From NCBI GenBank assembly GCA_013287545.1, contig JABDDQ010000013.1, forward strand, positions 1 to 45,703: a stretch of DNA of 45,703 nucleotides. The letters run 5' to 3'. Each line of letters begins with the position of its first letter. The first letter of the stretch is position 1. Below are positions 32,416 through 41,330 of the stretch, in pieces. Position numbers and translations under genes: made by a program. The notes below the pieces were generated by a model. That model worked only from the letters and a program-made list of their open reading frames with translations, searched no databases and was not told the DNA's origin. The stretch comes from Bacteroidota bacterium. GTDB taxonomy: Bacteria > Bacteroidota > Bacteroidia > B-17B0 > Aurantibacillaceae.

Positions 32416-32553
32416 GCGAATATATTATTTTAAACTGTATCGAAACCGAACAGTGTGGTGATAAAATCGAACACTTATAATTGAAATTCTTCTTCGAAAG
32501 CCAAGTAAAACGATAGTTCCATAGATTGGCACGAACTTGGTATTTATAAAAAT

Positions 32554-33987
32554 ATGCGAAAAAATAAAATCCAGTTAATTTATCTATTTCTATTGTTTAT
32601 TTCAACAAGCTTTTTATTTGCGGGTTCACCCATAAATATCATAGCCATCATAGATGTCAATATTATTCCAATGAGTAAAGAAGAAGTATTGTTAAATCAA
32701 ACCATACTTATTGAAAATGGAAAGATTAAGCAATTTGGAAAAGTGACAGATATTAAAATTCCGCAGGGCTCGCAAGTAATTGATGGGAAAGGGAAATATT
32801 TATTACCTGGGTTCTTTGACATGCATGCTCATTTTTTTTACGAGCAGGGAGAAAATAGAAACACCTGTGAAGCTGAATTAAAAATGATGCTGGCTAATGG
32901 ATTGACAACAGTAAGAATAGAATGTGGAGACTCTGTTTATCTCGTGGCAAGAAAAAATGTGAATGAAAATAAATGGTTAGGTCCGCAGTTATTTGTTTCA
33001 AGCCCCCAGTTTGTTGGCAACTGGCCTTGGCCCGGAAAAATGTTTGCTGAAATCTGCAAAGAACCCAAAGATGCAATTGCTGCAGTTCGTAAATGTAAAC
33101 AGGAAGGATACGACGAGATAAAAATTACTTTTATGGTTAAGAGAGATGTTTATGATGCTATAATTAAAACGGCGAAAGAGGTGGGGATGAAAATTACAGG
33201 ACATGTGGGGCCATTTGTTAAACTTCCGGCAGCGCTTGAAGCAAAACAGCAAATTGAACATATGGATGAGTTTATAGAGATGTTGTTGCCCGATACGATC
33301 TATAATCATGGGCAAAGTGTTTCAGATATGAATATTTGGGAAAAAGAGGCATGGGCTACAGTTCCTTATTTGGATGAGAATAAAATACCGACTCTTGTTA
33401 AGATGGTTAAACAAGCGGGGATTTATGTGACGCCAACCAATTATTTTTTCTTTTCTTCCTTTGTAGATAGCCTTACAAAGGAAGAATGTATGCGAAAACC
33501 TGACTATGCTTTTATTCCCCCTAAGATCAGGGAAACACGATGGAAAGTGAGAGACTACTATTGGAAAAATGCTCCGCCAAAATCTAGCAGAGAAAAGTAC
33601 TTTCAAATAAAAAGTAAAATAACATACGAACTGGCTAAAGTAGGTGTTAAACTTATGGCCGGCTCTGATTCGCCGGAGTGGTTCCTCGTACAGGGATTTT
33701 CCATACATAATGAACTTGAGGCTTTTGCAAAAATAGGAATGAGTTTGTTTGAAGTATTAGAAACAGCTACTATTAATCCGGCTACTTATTTAGGCATTAA
33801 CAAAACAAAAGGCACGATTGATATTGGAAAGGATGCAGATTTGATTTTATTGGAAAAGAATCCGCTTGAAAATATATCTAATACCAAATCTATCTGCGGT
33901 GTAATGGCTGGTAATAAATGGTTTGATAAGGGGCATTTAAAACTTATGCTGAATGAGGCAAAATCTGAGTTATCTAAAAGCAATTAG
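32554..33987 (+). CDS. Secreted amidohydrolase (imidazolonepropionase-like)
   Basis: 477 residues with a signal peptide (hydrophobic 9-22, cleavage near FAG), so periplasmic or secreted. The metal-dependent hydrolase fold is seen in order: LLPGFFDMHAHF with the HxH pair His91/His93, EIKITF with a candidate bridging Lys, ITGHVG and IEHMDE with two further His, MAGSDSPEW with the catalytic Asp, and the ending GTIDIGKDADLILLEKNPL. This matches secreted dipeptidase/prolidase-type amidohydrolases. The substrate is unknown, and no tie to the polysaccharide locus is evident apart from position. The 138 bases before it hold no gene I can support. Confidence 0.85.
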   Translation: MRKNKIQLIYLFLLFISTSFLFAGSPINIIAIIDVNIIPMSKEEVLLNQTILIENGKIKQFGKVTDIKIPQGSQVIDGKGKYLLPGFFDMHAHFFYEQGENRNTCEAELKMMLANGLTTVRIECGDSVYLVARKNVNENKWLGPQLFVSSPQFVGNWPWPGKMFAEICKEPKDAIAAVRKCKQEGYDEIKITFMVKRDVYDAIIKTAKEVGMKITGHVGPFVKLPAALEAKQQIEHMDEFIEMLLPDTIYNHGQSVSDMNIWEKEAWATVPYLDENKIPTLVKMVKQAGIYVTPTNYFFFSSFVDSLTKEECMRKPDYAFIPPKIRETRWKVRDYYWKNAPPKSSREKYFQIKSKITYELAKVGVKLMAGSDSPEWFLVQGFSIHNELEAFAKIGMSLFEVLETATINPATYLGINKTKGTIDIGKDADLILLEKNPLENISNTKSICGVMAGNKWFDKGHLKLMLNEAKSELSKSN

Positions 33988-34055
33988 TTTTTAATATTTG
34001 ATATACTTAAATTCTTTACTTTATCAATTTTTAGAAGTAATTAGAAATGAAAAAT

Positions 34056-34085
34056 CCTTAAAGGGTAAGACTTTTAAGTTTTTTT
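34056..34085 (+). terminator. Rho-independent terminator after the amidohydrolase (possibly bidirectional)
   Basis: An inverted repeat CTTAAA (34057-34062) / TTTAAG (34073-34078) is followed by a run of seven T. On the minus strand the same stem is followed by GATTTTTC. So it may also have ended transcription of tRNA-Ser before the 2.5-kb insertion moved the tRNA away. Confidence 0.55.
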
Positions 34086-34089
34086 ATTG

Positions 34090-34141
34090 GCGGAGGCTGA
34101 GAGATTCGAACTCTCGATACAGTTACCCGTATACAACCTTT
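34090..34141 (-). repeat. Direct repeat (att-like): displaced 3' part of tRNA-Ser
   Basis: These 52 bases are identical to 36591-36642, covering tRNA-Ser from the third anticodon base through the variable arm and T arm to the discriminator base, plus one flanking base. The 5' half, including two anticodon bases and the D arm, is absent, so this is not a tRNA gene. It marks the far end of an element integrated at the tRNA. Confidence 0.9.
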
Positions 34142-34156
34142 TATATATGAGGTTTT

Positions 34157-34206
34157 TGTAGATACCCACACTTTAAACTTGCTACAGGTGTCTGTATAGG
34201 TATCCT
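34157..34206. repeat. TGTA-(GG)-TATCC repeats at left end of element
   Basis: TGTAGATACC at 34157-34166 and TGTATAGGTATCCT at 34193-34206 share a core with TTGTAGGTATCCT at 36499-36511 and AGGTATCT at 36516-36523 near the other end, all in the same direction. They could be arm-type recombinase sites; they are short and degenerate, so this is tentative. Confidence 0.35.
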
Positions 34207-34344
34207 TTAATTAGAGTCTGTGTTTTAGTGCCTAATCTGTATAAACTGTTTTCATGAGAAGTGTATTAGATATAGAGGAAACACATTAGAGGGAGGATAA
34301 GATATATCACAATTTTATTATCTTTACTAATAAACTTTCTTCCA

Positions 34345-36030
34345 ATGAAAAAACTCCTTCTAATAATTTTATTTTTTTGTATTAAACAGGTCAATTCTCA
34401 AACTACCGTACCAGGTGGATATGTATATGGAACATGGACTTTAGCTGGTTCACCTTACTTAATACAGGGTGGTATTCTTGTGCCAAATGATTCTACACTT
34501 ACTATTAATCCTGGGGTTGTTGTAGAATTTCAAGGGCATGATAAACTTTTTTGTAAGGGTAGAATACTTGCACTTGGAGCTGTTTCTGATAGTATAACTT
34601 TTACTATTGCTTCAAGCAGTAGTTCCACTGGTTGGTGGGGTATTAGATTTGATAGTACAGCAAATACAAACGACACCTCTAAATTCTTTTACTGTAAAGT
34701 TCAATATGGGAATGCAAATGCTTCTTCAGGTAATGATGCTCATGGTGGGGGATTTTTCTTTAATGATTTTTCAAAATGCATTATTAGTAATTGCAATATT
34801 TCTAATAATAATGCTATGTATGGTGGTGGAGCAATTTATTGCACTTCATCATCTCCTATTATTAAAAATAGTTCAATTACCAATTCATATTCATATAATG
34901 GTGGTGAAGGAATTGATTGTGAGAATAATTCCCATACAATAATTGACAATAATTTCATTAGTGGAGGTAATATCTATTTTGAAAACTCTTCTCTTACTAT
35001 AACAAATAATACTATTAGTAGTGGCAATACTGTATGTTCAATCTGTTGTTGGAATGCTTCTTCAATAATAAGTAACAATATTATTGAATCTAATATATGT
35101 ACAAATGGGGGAAATGGAGGTGCAATACTTCTTAATAACTCTTCCTCTACAATCACTTATAATAAAATTTGTAATAATTCTAGTGTAGGGATTTCTTATG
35201 GAAATCAAACTGGTGTTGTAACTAATGTAACTATATCAAACAATATAATAGCTAATAATACATCTGTTAATGGCTTTGGTGGTGGTGCTATATCATTATA
35301 TAATGCTTCCCCAACTTTAATCAATAACACCATTTGTTATAATAAAAGCAGTGGAAATGGCGGAGCATTATATTGTGATAATGGTTCAAAACCTTCAATT
35401 TATAATAGTATTTTATATGGAAATACTTCAGCATTAAGTGGAAATCAAATTTATTTAAATGACCAGTATAGCCAACCTCCAATTTATAATTGTAATATAC
35501 AAGGTGGTACATCGGCTTTTGGACTTAATGGGAATGTTTATGTGGGGACTTATAGTAATAATATTGATTTTAATCCATCATTTGTTGCCCCATCAGCAGG
35601 AAGTGGAAATAGTTTTAATGGACTAATAGCAAATTGGTCTTTACAATCAAATTCTCCATGCATAAATGCTGGTAATCCTACAGGTTCATATCCAGCAACT
35701 GACATTGCAGGAAATCCTCGTGTTTATGGTTCAATTATAGATATTGGGGCTTATGAGTATCAAGGTTTGGTAGGAATAAAACAATTATCAATAGAAAATA
35801 CTCAGATAAATATTTACCCAAACCCAACTAGTAGCAATTTTACTATAGAAACTATCAATATAGAAAAACAAACTCTACAAGTATTTGATGTAACAGGTAA
35901 AATGGTTTTAAATCAATCTGTAGAAGGTAAAACAACAATTGATGTAACTAGCTTAAGTGAAGGAGTTTATAATCTCAGTTTAATTAACTCAACTGGAGTT
36001 ATAAATAAAAAGTTGGTTATAGTAAGGTAA
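34345..36030 (+). CDS. T9SS-sorted right-handed beta-helix surface protein
   Basis: 561 residues. A signal peptide (MKKLLLIILFFCIKQVNSQ) is followed by GTWTLAGSPYLIQGG and LTINPGVVVEFQG, the start of a parallel beta-helix. Residues about 110-400 carry repeated turns rich in Asn/Ser (IISNCNISNNNAMYGGGAIY; LINNTICYNKSSGNGGALY). Next comes SPCINAGNP...DIAGNPRVYGSIIDIGAYEY, the choice-of-anchor Q pattern, and residues about 488-561 form a type A T9SS sorting domain (IYPNPTSSNFTIE ... DVTGKMV ... LSEGVYNLSL). It should be secreted through the outer membrane and held on the surface, perhaps as adhesin or glycan-binding protein. TATCTTTA at 34319-34326 is a possible -7 box. It is the main cargo of the tRNA-integrated element. 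Confidence 0.88.
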   Translation: MKKLLLIILFFCIKQVNSQTTVPGGYVYGTWTLAGSPYLIQGGILVPNDSTLTINPGVVVEFQGHDKLFCKGRILALGAVSDSITFTIASSSSSTGWWGIRFDSTANTNDTSKFFYCKVQYGNANASSGNDAHGGGFFFNDFSKCIISNCNISNNNAMYGGGAIYCTSSSPIIKNSSITNSYSYNGGEGIDCENNSHTIIDNNFISGGNIYFENSSLTITNNTISSGNTVCSICCWNASSIISNNIIESNICTNGGNGGAILLNNSSSTITYNKICNNSSVGISYGNQTGVVTNVTISNNIIANNTSVNGFGGGAISLYNASPTLINNTICYNKSSGNGGALYCDNGSKPSIYNSILYGNTSALSGNQIYLNDQYSQPPIYNCNIQGGTSAFGLNGNVYVGTYSNNIDFNPSFVAPSAGSGNSFNGLIANWSLQSNSPCINAGNPTGSYPATDIAGNPRVYGSIIDIGAYEYQGLVGIKQLSIENTQINIYPNPTSSNFTIETINIEKQTLQVFDVTGKMVLNQSVEGKTTIDVTSLSEGVYNLSLINSTGVINKKLVIVR

Positions 36031-36059
36031 TTAAAAATTTATTTGTACTTATTTAAAAG

Positions 36060-36155
36060 TTATTTCTTTTTACCATTACCTAAATTTTTTAGATAAATAG
36101 GAAGCCCAATTGACCATAAAGTCACTACAATTATAAGTACTACTGTTCCGTCCAT
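36060..36155 (-). CDS. Candidate 31-residue membrane microprotein
   Basis: A short ORF starting two bases after the stop of the 88-residue ORF on the same strand. It reads MDGTVVLIIVVTLWSIG and continues with PIYLKN and a KKK end, so it has one strongly hydrophobic helix and a positive tail, as in small membrane peptides. The tight spacing suggests co-translation. Nothing else supports it; its size means it could arise by chance in AT-rich DNA. Confidence 0.3.
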   Translation of the reverse strand: MDGTVVLIIVVTLWSIGLPIYLKNLGNGKKK

Positions 36156-36157
36156 AT

Positions 36158-36424
36158 CTAACGTGTCTTATGTAAGTAATAGATAGTTCCAGCTGTACCA
36201 GGGGAATTTGTGCTACCATACTGTAATACAAGATTAGTTGTACTCTGAGAAACAATAGTATACACATCTCCACCAAAATTTAGTGTAGTATTTGAATTAC
36301 ATATCCATTCTGTTGCTACTACAGTACCTGTTAAGCCATAATTACAAGCTAATTGGGTAGTACTAGTACCATTAAATGGGATAGAAAAGAACTGAAGCAT
36401 ACACTTATATAGAGGAGAATGCAT
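36158..36424 (-). CDS. Small Ser/Thr-rich beta-strand ORF, possibly frameshifted secreted protein
   Basis: 88 codons, unlike an antisense shadow in composition: STTQLACNYGLTGTVVATEW, TTLNFGGDVYTIVSQS and LVLQYGSTN look like alternating beta strands with two Cys. As it stands it has no signal peptide. Another frame starting at the ATG at 36438 encodes a typical one (MIKSLCILLYISVCFSS), and a one-base shift near 36380 would join it to this ORF at SIPFNG. It may therefore be a broken or slippage-prone secreted protein. I recognise no family. It lies inside the tRNA-integrated element, opposite to the beta-helix gene. Confidence 0.4.
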   Translation of the reverse strand: MHSPLYKCMLQFFSIPFNGTSTTQLACNYGLTGTVVATEWICNSNTTLNFGGDVYTIVSQSTTNLVLQYGSTNSPGTAGTIYYLHKTR

Positions 36425-36433
36425 AGTGATTTA

Positions 36434-36463
36434 ATCATGGTTTCTAGATTTCAAAACCATGAT
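36434..36463. other. Perfect 10-bp inverted repeat (hairpin)
   Basis: ATCATGGTTT (36434-36443) and AAACCATGAT (36454-36463) are perfect complements around a 10-base spacer. It overlaps the possible start codon (36438) of the small minus-strand ORF, and could be an RNA hairpin, an operator, or a recombination-related structure. No T tract follows on either strand, so it is not a typical terminator. Confidence 0.5.
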
Positions 36464-36540
36464 GGGATACTAGTAAAGACCTGTGATTTAGAAAAACCTT
36501 GTAGGTATCCTATTTAGGTATCTCAGAAGTGTTAAAAGTG

Positions 36541-36581
36541 ATAGGATTAAAAGAGAAATCCCCAGTAAATACTGAGGGTTT
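36541..36581 (-). terminator. Terminator-like hairpin downstream of tRNA-Ser
   Basis: On the minus strand, ACCCTCAGTA pairs with TACTGGGGAT (one mismatch and one GT pair; plus-strand 36556-36581), followed by TTTCTCTTTT. It begins ten bases after the tRNA 3' end and lies on the element side of the repeat, so it may replace the terminator at 34056-34085. Confidence 0.45.
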
Positions 36582-36590
36582 AATTTGATA

Positions 36591-36642
36591 GCGGAGGCTG
36601 AGAGATTCGAACTCTCGATACAGTTACCCGTATACAACCTTT
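36591..36642 (-). repeat. Direct repeat (att-like) within tRNA-Ser
   Basis: The second copy of the 52-bp repeat, identical to 34090-34141. Sequences diverge on one side inside the anticodon loop (TTCCAGGG here, TTTATATA there) and on the other just past the discriminator base. Confidence 0.9.
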
Positions 36643-36678
36643 CCAGGGTTGCTCATTCGACCACTCTGACAAACCTCC
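36592..36678 (-). tRNA. tRNA-Ser(GGA)
   Basis: 87 bases on the minus strand. Acceptor stem GGAGGTT/AGCCTCC closes with one GT pair. The D arm contains CAGAGTGG, the anticodon stem is CAACC/GGTTG around the loop CTGGAAA (anticodon GGA, read as Ser), a long class II variable arm follows, and GAGAG TTCGAAT CTCTC forms the T arm. The discriminator is G, as for tRNA-Ser, and CCA is not encoded (CTA follows). It is the integration target of the neighbouring element and still complete. Confidence 0.95.
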
Positions 36679-36684
36679 TGATTT

Positions 36685-37146
36685 TTAGTATTTCTTTTTT
36701 TGCGCTTTTTTATTTTTAGCAACGGCTTCTTTGTTTTGCTTTTTTTTAAGATTGTAGTTATAGCGCATACTGTCCCAATAGTCTTTAGTATAATCGGTGA
36801 AAATTTCTTCACCTGCTTTAATATCACGAGTGGCAACAATAAAACACTTATCATCAAAAATTTCGTACTGACTATTATTTTTTAAGCCTTTTACACGTAC
36901 AAATCCATTAGCATCATTTGCATAACGGGCTTTATATTGCGGTGTGTGAAAAGCATCTACACAACGGTTTTTATTAAAGTAAAACAAGTATCCATCTTCG
37001 TCACGGTCAACACGCTCTTTATAATCTTTCCACCCAATTACTTCTCCACGATATTCAATAATTTTGGTTTCTTTTTTTAAAGGTTTTGTAGTATATAAAC
37101 CTTTGCCCGAGCCCGGTATTTTCGATTTTTTTACAATTAATGCCAT
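36685..37146 (-). CDS. SET-domain protein-lysine methyltransferase
   Basis: 153 residues, almost only a SET domain. IPGSGKGLYTTKPLKKE carries the N-terminal GxG, IEYRGEVIGW the first SET strand, ARYANDANGFVRV the pseudoknot motif (in place of RYINHSCxPN), FIVATRDIKAGEEIFTDYTKDYW the second half with the conserved GEEI-DY. It ends with a Lys-rich tail (KKKQNKEAVAKNKKAQKKKY) that could bind nucleic acid. SET enzymes move methyl from SAM to protein Lys; small free-standing ones occur in several bacterial groups with mostly unknown targets. Its start is only eight bases from a TACTTTTG -7 box, so its mRNA may be nearly leaderless. It is divergent from the cobalamin riboswitch operon. Confidence 0.88.
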   Translation of the reverse strand: MALIVKKSKIPGSGKGLYTTKPLKKETKIIEYRGEVIGWKDYKERVDRDEDGYLFYFNKNRCVDAFHTPQYKARYANDANGFVRVKGLKNNSQYEIFDDKCFIVATRDIKAGEEIFTDYTKDYWDSMRYNYNLKKKQNKEAVAKNKKAQKKKY

Positions 37147-37149
37147 AGG

Positions 37150-37182
37150 TTTGCAAAAGTAAAAGGTTATTGCTTACATTTG
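37150..37182 (+). promoter_or_regulatory. Promoter of the cobalamin riboswitch operon
   Basis: TTTG at 37150-37153, 21 bases, then TACATTTG at 37175-37182, an exact match to the Bacteroidota TTG-N-TAnnTTTG promoter. It lies directly before the riboswitch. Confidence 0.65.
37154..37161 (-). promoter_or_regulatory. Candidate -7 box of the SET gene, overlapping the divergent promoter
   Basis: On the minus strand TACTTTTG matches TAnnTTTG exactly, eight bases before the SET start codon at 37146. It sits beside the TTTG of the plus-strand promoter at 37150-37153, so polymerase could not occupy both at once. No clear TTG element is seen upstream on the minus strand. Confidence 0.4.
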
Positions 37183-37189
37183 CGGCCGT

Positions 37190-37405
37190 GTTTGGTTTTT
37201 TACTGTTATTTATCAACAGAAAAAATTAAAAGGGAATGCCGTGAAAATCGGCAACAGTGCCCGCTGCTGTAATCTCGTTTGTTGTAAAAACAAATAAAAA
37301 CAACTACTACCACTAACGATTAAAACCGTTGGGAAGGATTTGAAGAGAGAGTCAGAAGACCTGCCATACACATTAACGTAAAAATCCTCGTGGACAAGGA
37401 TTTAA
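37190..37405 (+). ncRNA. Cobalamin (adenosylcobalamin-type) riboswitch
   Basis: Core elements are in order: AAAAGGGAATGCCGTGAAAATC then GGC-A-ACAG (37228-37257), the P5 arm with TGCCCGCTGCTGTAAT, the peripheral CCACTAACG...CGTTGGGAAGG arm (37310-37338), and the B12 box AGTCAGAAGACCTGCC (37350-37365). A downstream hairpin AAATCCT/AGGATTT (37382-37388, 37397-37403) has GTGG in its loop (37390-37393), able to pair with CCGC in L5 (37261-37264): the L5-L13 kissing interaction of this class. The hairpin sits just before the start codon at 37412, so control is probably by hiding the ribosome site when B12 is bound. The 5' boundary is approximate. Confidence 0.93.
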
Positions 37406-37411
37406 AACGAA

Positions 37412-39334
37412 ATGATGTTTAGAGTAAAATATAGTTTAGGAGTATTTTTTTTACTTATTTGTTCCTTTTGTTTTTCGCAGCAAAAGAGCGATACTTTGCT
37501 TCTAAACGAAGTTAATGTTACCGATTATCGCATAAAAAAATCTACCGAAAATTTTGTTCAGCTAAAAATAGATTCGGCATCGCAAAGCGCTTTTTTAACA
37601 TCAAACCTATCTCAATTACTTATACAGCAAAACGGAACATTGGTAAAAGCTTATGGGCCAGGTAACATAGCATCGCTTGGTATAAGAGGCAGCACAGCAC
37701 AGCAAACAGCTGTTATTTGGAATGGGATGAATATTAATAACCCTATGCTTGGGCAAGCAGATATATCTTTATTACCTATTGGTTTTTTTAACAATATGAG
37801 TTTGCAAAAAGGGGCACTCAGTGGTTATTGGGGCAGTGGGGCTATGGCAGGGGTTTTAAACTTGCAAAGTAGCCCGCAACAAACTAATGGGTTAATGGTA
37901 CAGGCATCTACCTCGTACTCGTCTCTACAAAATAGTGTACAATGGGCTTCGGTAAATTTTTCGGCAGGTAAATTAATTTCGTCTACTAAGCTACTGGTAG
38001 ATTTTTCGCAGAATAAATATCAATATTATAAAAACACCGATACATCTTTAGTTAAACAAACTCAACAGCATAGTCAAACAAATCAGTTAGCCTTGTTGCA
38101 AGATTTTATATACAACCTAAAACCTAACCAGCAATTAGGTTTACATATTTGGGTACAAAATGTAGATAGGCAGATACCCTATACAATAAGTGCTTTGCCA
38201 CAGGATGCTAACCAAACTGACAAGACTTTTAGAACCATGTTGGACTGGAAGGTGAGTCAGAAAAAAATCACCTTTAACACCAAGCTTGCCTTTTTTAACG
38301 AAGCCATTATTTATAACAATATAACCGATGCTATTTATAGCAACAATAACTTTAAAACTTTTGCTTTAGATGCAGATTTACAATATAAGGCAAACAAAGG
38401 TTTTACTATAAGTGGGGGAACAGGTAATATGTTATCATTAGGAAACTCGCCAAATTTTATAACACAAAAACAATTATTACGTGACGCTTTGTTTGAGAAT
38501 ATAAGCTGGAATAGTAAACGTAATCTTTTCATCGCTAACGTATATGCCCGACAAGAATTATTTAACTCAACCACATTTGTACCAACCGCAGGCGCAACAA
38601 CAACCTTAAATATTTTTAGTTGGCTTGCCTGGAAAGCAAATGCGGGCACCGTTTACCGTTATCCTACTTTAAACGATTTGTATTGGAACCCAGGTGGTAA
38701 CCCAAACTTAAAACCAGAGCAAGGATATAGTGAGGAAACATCGCTTTTAACAAAACATCAAATAAAAAATATTTCATTAAACTTCACTGGGACTATTTTT
38801 AGCAGAGATATACATAATTGGATTATGTGGCTACCGGGACAGGATGGAAACTGGAGTCCGGTAAATATTTTGCATGTGTGGAGCAGGGGATTAGAAACTA
38901 ATACGGAGGTAGTTTATAGAAAAAACAGATTTAAAACATCACTTAATGTACTTACAAACTACATTTTATCTACATCGTTACCCTCTACTAATAACCAGTA
39001 TACCCAAATGGTTTATGTACCCATGTATTCTGGCTCCGCTATTGTTTCGGTTGAATATAAAAACTGGATATTACGTACAGTTTGTACGTACACTGGCTAC
39101 CGCTATTTAAGTACAGATAATTATAACTATTTAACTCCTTATACTTTGTTAGACCTTCGTGTGGCACGTACTTTTGTTTGTAAAACCTTTTTATTGAATA
39201 TTTTTGCGGAGGTAAATAATGTATTGAATGAAAATTACCAGAGCATAACGCAATATGGCATGCCATTAAGAAATTATAAAGCAGGATTAATTATTCAATA
39301 TCATAAACCAATAAAAAATAAAATAACAATATGA
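37412..39334 (+). CDS. btuB: TonB-dependent cobalamin receptor (BtuB-like)
   Basis: 640 residues. A signal peptide (about 1-23, ending CFSQQ) is followed by a plug domain (about 30-150: LSQLLIQQNGTLVKAYGPG, SLGIRGSTAQQTAVIWNGM, GYWGSGAMAGVLNL) and a beta-barrel to the C-terminus (YPTLNDLYWNPGGNPNLKPE, the usual TonB-receptor NPxLKPE block). It would carry a corrinoid across the outer membrane with TonB energy. The riboswitch directly upstream makes cobalamin the likely substrate. ATG codons at 37412 and 37415 are both possible starts. Its stop overlaps the next ATG (ATGA). Confidence 0.92.
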   Translation: MMFRVKYSLGVFFLLICSFCFSQQKSDTLLLNEVNVTDYRIKKSTENFVQLKIDSASQSAFLTSNLSQLLIQQNGTLVKAYGPGNIASLGIRGSTAQQTAVIWNGMNINNPMLGQADISLLPIGFFNNMSLQKGALSGYWGSGAMAGVLNLQSSPQQTNGLMVQASTSYSSLQNSVQWASVNFSAGKLISSTKLLVDFSQNKYQYYKNTDTSLVKQTQQHSQTNQLALLQDFIYNLKPNQQLGLHIWVQNVDRQIPYTISALPQDANQTDKTFRTMLDWKVSQKKITFNTKLAFFNEAIIYNNITDAIYSNNNFKTFALDADLQYKANKGFTISGGTGNMLSLGNSPNFITQKQLLRDALFENISWNSKRNLFIANVYARQELFNSTTFVPTAGATTTLNIFSWLAWKANAGTVYRYPTLNDLYWNPGGNPNLKPEQGYSEETSLLTKHQIKNISLNFTGTIFSRDIHNWIMWLPGQDGNWSPVNILHVWSRGLETNTEVVYRKNRFKTSLNVLTNYILSTSLPSTNNQYTQMVYVPMYSGSAIVSVEYKNWILRTVCTYTGYRYLSTDNYNYLTPYTLLDLRVARTFVCKTFLLNIFAEVNNVLNENYQSITQYGMPLRNYKAGLIIQYHKPIKNKITI

Positions 39335-40347
39335 AAAAACAATTACTATCAATTGCCTTATCTATAGGTGTTATAGCTGTATCGGCACAAAGTACACCTA
39401 CTACACAAATTAGTGATTTTGAAAATGTTACTTTAACAAGTAACCACAATACTGTATATAATGATTCTACCGGTGGCGGCGGATTTACCAGTGGCAATGC
39501 CTATTTCCCTTCTCAGTGGGACCCACATTATGACTATTGGTCTGGTGGATGGGCTGCAAGTTCTGTAAGAGATTCTACCAACGCATATCCTAATTTATAT
39601 GGTTGCGCTGCTTATACAGGATATAATAGTTCTAATAAATACGCTGTAGGAACAACTTCTGGGAGTCTTATGATGTATATGACAGATAGTTTGATTGGTA
39701 AAACCGTTACCGGAATGTATATATGTAATAGCACTTACGCATATAAGAGTATGAAAAAAGGCGATTCTTATGAGCCGGCTTTTACAGCACGTAATAAAGA
39801 TTGGTTTAAACTTACCGCTAAAAAATATTTTGGAGGTGTTTTAACTAATGATAGTGTTGAAGTTTATTTAGCAGATTTCCGTTATTCAGATACTACTCAA
39901 AATTATATTTTAAAAACCTGGATGTGGGTAGGGTTTTCTGCCATTGGTAATGTAGATAGTTTATCATTTTCGCTTAGCTCATCACAAAATGGCACGTATG
40001 GAATGAACACACCTGCCTTTTTCTGTATAGATAATGTTACCCTTAGTACATATAGAGATACTGCTGCGACCACAGGAATTAAAAATTACTTTTCGGAAAA
40101 CAGCCTAAGTGTTTATCCTAACCCTGCAGTTACCGAAACAGAGATTGTATATAACACAAGTGCTTCGGTACCTGTTAATTTAAAATTAATTGATTTATTA
40201 GGTAATGAGTTAATTACACAAAAAGCACAATCGTTTTTAGGGTTAAATAAATTTAAAATAGATGTATCTACATTACCGGCAGGTGTTTATTATGTTACAC
40301 TTAATGCGGGAAGTAATTTGTTAACCAAAAAATTAATTAAACAGTAA
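39331..40347 (+). CDS. DUF4465-like secreted protein with T9SS sorting domain
   Basis: 338 residues, coupled to btuB by an ATGA overlap. A signal peptide (about 1-20, VIAVSAQ) leads to a beta-sandwich-like domain: ISDFENVTLTSNHNTVYNDS, FPSQWDPHYDYWSGGWAASS, YGCAAYTGYNSSNKYAVGT and, later, DSLSFSLSSSQNGTYGMNTPAFFCIDNVTL, which fit my memory of DUF4465 proteins coded beside B12 receptors in Bacteroidota. Residues about 262-338 are a type A T9SS sorting domain (SVYPNPAVTETEI ... DLLGNELI ... LPAGVYYVTL). It should be a surface-exposed cobalamin-binding or -trapping partner of the receptor; that role is inferred from the operon and riboswitch. Confidence 0.75.
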   Translation: MKKQLLSIALSIGVIAVSAQSTPTTQISDFENVTLTSNHNTVYNDSTGGGGFTSGNAYFPSQWDPHYDYWSGGWAASSVRDSTNAYPNLYGCAAYTGYNSSNKYAVGTTSGSLMMYMTDSLIGKTVTGMYICNSTYAYKSMKKGDSYEPAFTARNKDWFKLTAKKYFGGVLTNDSVEVYLADFRYSDTTQNYILKTWMWVGFSAIGNVDSLSFSLSSSQNGTYGMNTPAFFCIDNVTLSTYRDTAATTGIKNYFSENSLSVYPNPAVTETEIVYNTSASVPVNLKLIDLLGNELITQKAQSFLGLNKFKIDVSTLPAGVYYVTLNAGSNLLTKKLIKQ

Positions 40348-41330
40348 TGCGGTTTTTATTTGTTGTTTGTTTTATATCTCAGGTTGCCATTGCGCAGTTT
40401 GCTCCGCCTCAGGGGCAAACTGGCAGTACGGCCATGTATAAAGATAGTAGTGCTTTTGTAGCTTGGGCAAGTGCCTGTAAAATAACACGTGGCTTGCAAG
40501 ATATATCGAACACATCATCGGGTTATGCAACAGTGGGAGATAGCAGCAGTGCTATCAACATTGCTGATGGAAATGTAGTTAGCTTAGGTGATGGAGGGTC
40601 TGCCATTTGTACTTTTGCACATGAAATATACAATGGAATCGGGTACGATTTTGCTGTATTTGAAAATTCGTTTGATGGGGATTATTTGGAGTTTGGGTTT
40701 GTAGAAGTGAGTAGCGATGGGGTTAATTTTTTCCGTTTTCCGGCAACTTCAAACACTCAAGATACATTACAGACAGGAGCCTTTGGTGATAGTGATGCCA
40801 CTAAAGTAAATAACCTTGGTGGTAAATACATAGTGCAATATGGTACTCCGTTTGATTTGAATGAAATGCAAGGCATTAGTGGTTTAGACATTAATCACAT
40901 AACACATGTCAAAATAATTGATGTAGTTGGTAGCATAAATACAACTTATGCAACTCACGATAAAAATAATAATAAAGTTAATGACCCATGGCCAACTCCT
41001 TACGCATCGTGTGGATTTGATTTAGATGCTGTGGGTGTTATTAACCAGCAAAGCAATAACGCTATTAAAAAAATAGACGACAACATATCTGTTTCTGTTT
41101 ATCCGAATCCTGCAAGTACTAATTTATGTATTAGTTTAAATAATGCTTTAGCTAATGATGCAATTATTTACATAACCGATATAAATGGAAAAACTGTTAT
41201 TCAGAAAGAACTTGAGTCTACTGAAAATATACTAAATATAGATGTTGCCATGCTTGATAATGGCTTTTATTTTCTTCAATTAAAAAGTAACTCAATATGT
41301 GTTACAAAAAAAATCAGCATAACTAAATAA
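40347..41330 (+). CDS. Secreted surface protein with T9SS sorting domain (B12 operon)
   Basis: 327 residues, start overlapping the previous stop (TAATG). A short signal peptide ends near AIAQ. The main domain has SSAINIADGNVVSLGDGG, FAHEIYNGIGYDFAVFENSF, YLEFGFVEVSSDGVNFFRFP and PYASCGFDLDAVGVIN. These resemble concanavalin/discoidin-like cell-surface modules that recur in Bacteroidota B12 loci; I cannot name the family with certainty. Residues about 250-327 form a T9SS type A sorting domain (SVYPNPASTNLCI ... DINGKTVI ... LDNGFYFLQL). It probably works on the cell surface with the receptor. Confidence 0.72.
   Translation: MRFLFVVCFISQVAIAQFAPPQGQTGSTAMYKDSSAFVAWASACKITRGLQDISNTSSGYATVGDSSSAINIADGNVVSLGDGGSAICTFAHEIYNGIGYDFAVFENSFDGDYLEFGFVEVSSDGVNFFRFPATSNTQDTLQTGAFGDSDATKVNNLGGKYIVQYGTPFDLNEMQGISGLDINHITHVKIIDVVGSINTTYATHDKNNNKVNDPWPTPYASCGFDLDAVGVINQQSNNAIKKIDDNISVSVYPNPASTNLCISLNNALANDAIIYITDINGKTVIQKELESTENILNIDVAMLDNGFYFLQLKSNSICVTKKISITK

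Follow-up and report, generated by a model that had tools for sequence, protein, structure and literature searches.

The analysed stretch (hereafter the window, 45.7 kb; positions 1 to 45,703 of contig JABDDQ010000013.1, from a member of the Aurantibacillaceae) harbors a 2.5-kb element at tRNA-Ser(GGA), the only tRNA gene that ARAGORN finds in it. The element is real, was correctly described in an initial annotation of the sequence, and is mostly ordinary: it is a decayed tRNA-Ser island with a retained surface-protein cargo gene. Comparison with relatives makes it most likely that the element is an old remnant, passed on vertically and resembling the CIMEs, which are decayed ICE/IME remnants keeping attL and attR (PMC5704250). 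We hold with considerable confidence the whole account, in which an island would have been inserted, would have undergone an internal deletion, and would have been inherited as a CIME-like remnant at tRNA-Ser(GGA). The sole unusual part is a difference in the passenger portion of the cargo gene, seen in two genomes.

Two direct copies of a 52-bp sequence (34090–34141 and 36591–36642; 52/52 identity, spacing 2,501 bp) enclose 2,449 bp, in full agreement with the perfect tRNA 3' repeats reported in the initial annotation. The right copy is the 3' part of the intact tRNA gene, spanning it from the third base of the anticodon onward, and is read as an att core supplied by the element; the left copy is read as the displaced 3' end of the host gene (Table 1). 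No third copy occurs in the window. When the flanks are joined at the repeat in silico and the insert is removed, a complete tRNA-Ser(GGA) is obtained. The arrangement is the one sought by Islander, i.e., an intact tRNA gene with a displaced 3' fragment downstream on the same strand, within 2–200 kb. As for the integrase that Islander looks for inside, only its codons 1–11 are present, so the window element is a remnant and not an Islander-grade island. Both att sites are retained as in a CIME, with the 52/52 core and arm-like repeats at each end. An assembly artefact is ruled out because a related species (G002), represented by a separate MAG, has the same architecture. The encoded CCA (GCCA) on the displaced fragment might have marked the end native to the host, but it was dropped as evidence, since the relatives mostly lack CCA.

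Table 1. Features of the tRNA-Ser(GGA) element and its borders (window positions).
Feature	Position	Strand	Basis or remark
Displaced host tRNA-Ser 3' fragment (distal att core)	34090–34141	−	52/52 identical to tRNA; flank joining
Left-end arm-like repeats	34160–34204	+	AGATACC 34160–34166 (inverted copy), AGGTGTC 34186–34192, AGGTATC 34198–34204
Cargo gene, 561-aa beta-helix protein with T9SS type A sorting domain	34345–36030	+	PF13229, PF18962, TIGR04183, NF041518
88-aa ORF, no family	36158–36424	−	Overlaps integrase stub in another frame
Integrase gene stub, codons 1–11 (MIKSLCILLYI)	36406–36438	−	Homology to G001 integrase
Right-end arm-like repeats AGGTATC	36503–36509 and 36516–36522	+	Counterpart in G001
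Terminator hairpin behind tRNA, read as element-supplied	36560–36577	−	18 bases identical in G001
tRNA-Ser(GGA), intact	36591–36678	−	ARAGORN; Rfam RF00005; repeat comparison

The interior carries a gene for a 561-aa protein whose C-terminal sorting domain (residues about 475–561, 35767–36027) scores over the curated cut-off for T9SS type A cargo. The protein matches Beta_helix PF13229 (2e-22), PF18962 (9.4e-14), and TIGR04183 (9.5e-13), all above curated cut-offs, which bears out the earlier description of a beta-helix adhesin-like T9SS gene. At the N-terminus, a hydrophobic stretch ahead of VNSQ can be recognised by eye. No recombinase ORF lies between the two repeat copies. The 88-aa ORF gives weak matches only, to stretches of large proteins; it may be spurious or may be a truncated gene at the deletion junction. 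Outside the element, two adjacent ORFs of the window (39331–40347 and 40347–41330) also have T9SS sorting domains, and a cobalamin riboswitch (RF00174, 89 bits, 37176–37382) lies directly upstream of an outer-membrane receptor-like ORF (37412–39334).

The right end of the element is shared with an integrase-bearing island. Another species of the genus, G001 (contig CAIXZI010000606.1), has the same tRNA-Ser and SET-domain neighbour as the window. In the direction of the tRNA, the order there is tRNA-Ser, a 416-aa tyrosine integrase with arm-binding, SAM-like, and catalytic domains, RadC, a type I methyltransferase, and the contig end; the island is known for 4.5 kb, its distal end lying beyond the contig. 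Window positions 36404–36697 are 78% identical to this island end, and the non-coding part alone is 76% identical. The homology ends at about 36404, just past codon 11 of the integrase gene, the start of which reads MIKSLCILLYI in the window vs. MIKSLKILFYI in G001. The earlier statement that there is no integrase inside holds for recombinase ORFs, but it overlooked these first ~11 codons at the right end. On the simplest reading, an internal deletion would have taken out the integrase and whatever lay behind it. The initial annotation had offered two options, mobilisation in trans or a deletion remnant. The integrase stub together with its G001 homologue favours the remnant over the trans route; mobilisation in trans may be possible, both ends being kept.

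The second species, G002 (contig JABDCR010000012.1), has a 2.5-kb insert at the same locus, with a displaced tRNA fragment and a period of 2,512 bp. A search for same-ended inserts at tRNA-Ser(GGA) had been proposed together with the original description. The left 260 bases of this insert are 81% identical to those of the window, the AGGTRTC pair included. When all seven genomes of the genus compared here were searched for the 25-bp pair, three mismatches being allowed, it turned up only three times: at the left end in the window, at the left end in G002, and at the right end in the G001 island. The single motif AGGTRTC has 10 occurrences across the 45.7-kb window, 4 of them in the two element ends (~320 bp); the corresponding Poisson figure of about 1e-6 is optimistic, as the motif was picked after looking. 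These repeats are putative arm-type binding sites of a G001-type integrase. The right end of the G002 insert is further eroded: the right-end repeats and the integrase start are absent, and the terminator is disrupted less than about 20 bases from the tRNA. The displaced fragment of G002 mismatches the 5' acceptor strand of the tRNA (C against A at one pair), and since it no longer fits that strand, the insertion there is probably not recent. An empty site in a close relative had also been proposed for comparison; no native one with the same neighbours was found among the relatives. Uninserted tRNA-Ser(GGA) genes are present in them; that of G003 has different neighbours, and the surroundings of the SET gene in G003, G005, and G006 yielded no tRNA.

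The closest relatives of the G001 integrase adjoin tRNA-Ser genes in other genera (G096, 55% identity, tRNA-Ser(TGA); G060, 47%, tRNA-Ser(GCT)), and more distant ones are located at tRNA-Pro, Asp, Lys, Phe, and Leu. In a quick tree, the Ser-site integrases separate from the Pro group, and the inner nodes are well supported. G096 contains a complete 6.5-kb island (integrase, RadC, AAA_24, DUF3871) with a 67-bp tRNA-Ser repeat up to the anticodon arm. The repeats of the more distant islands in G027, G098, and G018 are apparently about 15 bp long and cover the extreme tRNA 3' end. The core in the window, being long and reaching the anticodon, therefore fits the G001/G096 clade. The displaced fragment, the restored site, the G096 repeat, and the arm-like repeats support the tyrosine-recombinase-type crossover at the anticodon loop that had been suggested at the outset, and with it a predicted site-specific integration at tRNA-Ser with exchange in or near that loop.

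The window's own genome (G000), which is 57% complete, has nine tyrosine-recombinase matches, the best having 31% identity to the G001 integrase along its length, and a 135-aa fragment that is 46–47% identical. No helper integrase with matching arm repeats was found in this incomplete genome, and the contig of the fragment is without a tRNA. Two short contigs (C62 and C84; L004 and L005) each have a 194-aa tyrosine recombinase ORF with a catalytic domain and similar scores. On contig C11, a peptidase C10 (L164:1205–4827) and an NHL-repeat protein (L164:7828–9024), both with T9SS sorting domains, are encoded a few kb from a tyrosine integrase. In G092, a member of the same family (L169:8062–8548), the 3' 53 bases of tRNA-Ser(GGA) have an 87%-identical copy about 350 bp downstream, which is either an additional tRNA or an insert of very small size. 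A phage origin was rejected: no DNA match was obtained in the phage collection, and one distant integrase (28%) was found among viral contigs.

The flanks of the element are about 82–85% identical between G000 and G002, and the left ends are 81% identical. Third codon positions diverge by 31% in the sorting domain and by 34–41% in the flanking genes. The mini-element was found only at the tRNA-Ser(GGA) locus, in two sister species. An end divergence close to that of the flanks, a single locus, and two sister species are what is expected of one inherited insertion; on the same grounds, the idea of surface-protein cassettes moving between tRNA sites, put forward in the initial annotation, is not sustained. 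The displaced core is identical in the two genomes over 50 bases, whereas the adjoining end differs by 19% (Fisher p = 2e-4). This does not fit well a silent inherited fossil without gene conversion; possible explanations are gene conversion with the tRNA and ongoing recombination. Gene content immediately outside the displaced fragment is not shared by the two genomes, although both outer flanks are syntenic: between an asparagine-synthase-like gene and the fragment (window 32416–34089 vs. L059:8860–12213) there are unrelated genes (amidohydrolase; AsmA and a small lipoprotein).

The cargo gene of G002 shares its leader with the window gene as far as the start codon, but its passenger consists of NHL repeats and Ig/PKD-like domains vs. 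the beta-helix in the window. The sorting domains of the two genes show 79% nucleotide identity, the best nucleotide match among the relatives searched. These genomes contain many similar T9SS sorting domains, among them one in G005 with 67% protein identity, so recombination from one to another would offer an easy path. G005 and G018 also have relatives of the entire beta-helix gene, with no tRNA in the surrounding stretches examined, so this gene is not tied to the window element. Nor is T9SS cargo on tRNA islands unique to the window, since a laminin-G T9SS protein (G098, L150:11940–13577) is part of a probable 21-kb island at tRNA-Ser(TGA) whose integrase is 36% identical to that of G001. 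One may speculate, at rather long odds, that the tRNA-Ser(GGA) site is an exchange locus with fixed att ends, leader, and sorting domain, where passengers would be swapped between species by visiting islands or by sorting-domain recombination.

We assume the following sequence of events. In an ancestor, an integrase-carrying island would have entered tRNA-Ser(GGA) in the region of its anticodon loop, pushing the host's own tRNA 3' end to 34090–34141 and bringing a replacement 3' end and a terminator. An internal deletion would then have stripped almost the whole integrase gene together with the sequence behind it, so that both att cores, the arm-like repeats at both ends, the 11-codon stub, and the T9SS beta-helix gene remained. 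The insertion is most likely older than the split from G002, to judge from the same left end, the similar sorting domain, the different passenger, and the more eroded right end. Excision would occur only with a related integrase from elsewhere; otherwise, the surface-protein gene would stay chromosomal. The core repeat, the restored empty site, the integrase stub, the shared ends, and the element-specific repeats are observed, and we infer the deletion event, its age, and any mobilisation capacity. Against this account stand the identity of the displaced core in G000 and G002 and the differing genes just beyond it; moreover, since the G001 contig ends before the distal end, T9SS cargo on the parent island is putative.

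The presence of both cores and both arm regions in the window would also suit a living recombinase-less cassette, with functional ends, which a related integrase in trans would excise and re-insert, with surface proteins being exchanged among strains or species. The unusually conserved displaced core, the fact that these ends frame another passenger in G002, and the frequency of related integrases in the family agree with this. However, the right-end repeats and the terminator are lost in G002, the end divergence matches the flank divergence, the mini-element was found at one locus only, and the own genome (57% complete) has no integrase with matching arm repeats; we regard a living cassette as unlikely. 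Alternatively, the T9SS gene could never have been island cargo and could have joined an already integrase-less remnant via homologous recombination between sorting domains, given how abundant and alike these domains are, the beta-helix relatives away from tRNAs in G005 and G018, and the other passenger in G002. We give this very little credence: the T9SS leader is continuous with the left att end in both species, so a T9SS gene was present before the split, and a T9SS protein is also found inside the probable 21-kb tRNA-Ser island of G098.

A tRNA 3' fragment near a full gene might, in principle, be a leftover of a second tRNA-Ser gene that has decayed, or of a tRNA segment duplicated without a mobile element. 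The initial annotation had raised the former case, with a 5' half still recognisable. Beside the distal copy there is no recognisable 5' half; the homology breaks sharply at the anticodon, the 3' half being perfect, and the right border has the integrase start and terminator common to an integrase island. The sharp anticodon break, the integrase stub, and arm repeats in common with the related elements rule out a decayed second gene, and the chance that a duplication of either kind accounts for the locus is negligible.

Among the known systems, CIME is the best category for the inherited remnant. The likeness consists in the kept att cores, the lost integration genes, the kept cargo, and the tRNA 3' end, but no intact element is found in tandem with it, and the integrase loss is seen while the ICE/IME parentage is putative. 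We prefer the term CIME-like, as transfer genes in the parent and excision are both hypothetical. The ssrA islands of Dehalococcoides offer a close parallel: they are small, have RNA-gene direct repeats, no integration module, and adaptive cargo, and were suggested to be CIMEs (PMC3146451). The window element is likewise small, bounded by RNA-gene repeats, and integrase-less; it is a single tRNA-Ser insert with a tyrosine-integrase stub, in contrast to tandem ssrA arrays with a serine recombinase and reductive dehalogenase cargo. In Bacteroidota, NBU1 targets tRNA-Leu and NBU2 targets tRNA-Ser (PMC5704250), and the Riemerella 10K island is located at tRNA-Arg (PMC6764341). Likened to the window element by description, all three share with it the tyrosine integrase, the tRNA 3' part, and perfect direct repeats, but they have a working integrase, whereas the window has only 11 codons. 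Islands formed by exchange in the anticodon loop make up a common class at tRNA genes (PMC4383910), and the element has in common with Islander-type islands the restored tRNA, the displaced 3' fragment in the same orientation, a length of >2 kb, and exchange in subsite A. Islander discards candidates without an integrase (PMC4383910) and would exclude the window element, which is one reason why such remnants are little described. In Porphyromonas gingivalis, surface-protein domains vary at fixed loci among strains by domain rearrangement and allelic exchange (PMC5266723); the variation at the window site is between two species, inside an old tRNA island, and in two genomes only.

The locus shows how cargo can survive the decay of the island that carried it, the integrase being lost while the tRNA ends and the secreted surface protein are kept. 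Three states of one site in one genus (integrase-bearing, deleted, and further eroded) document the decay path. Remnants of this type are probably under-counted, since Islander rejects candidates that lack an integrase. If the passenger difference recurs in more genomes, tRNA islands would be tied to surface-protein variation in Bacteroidota.
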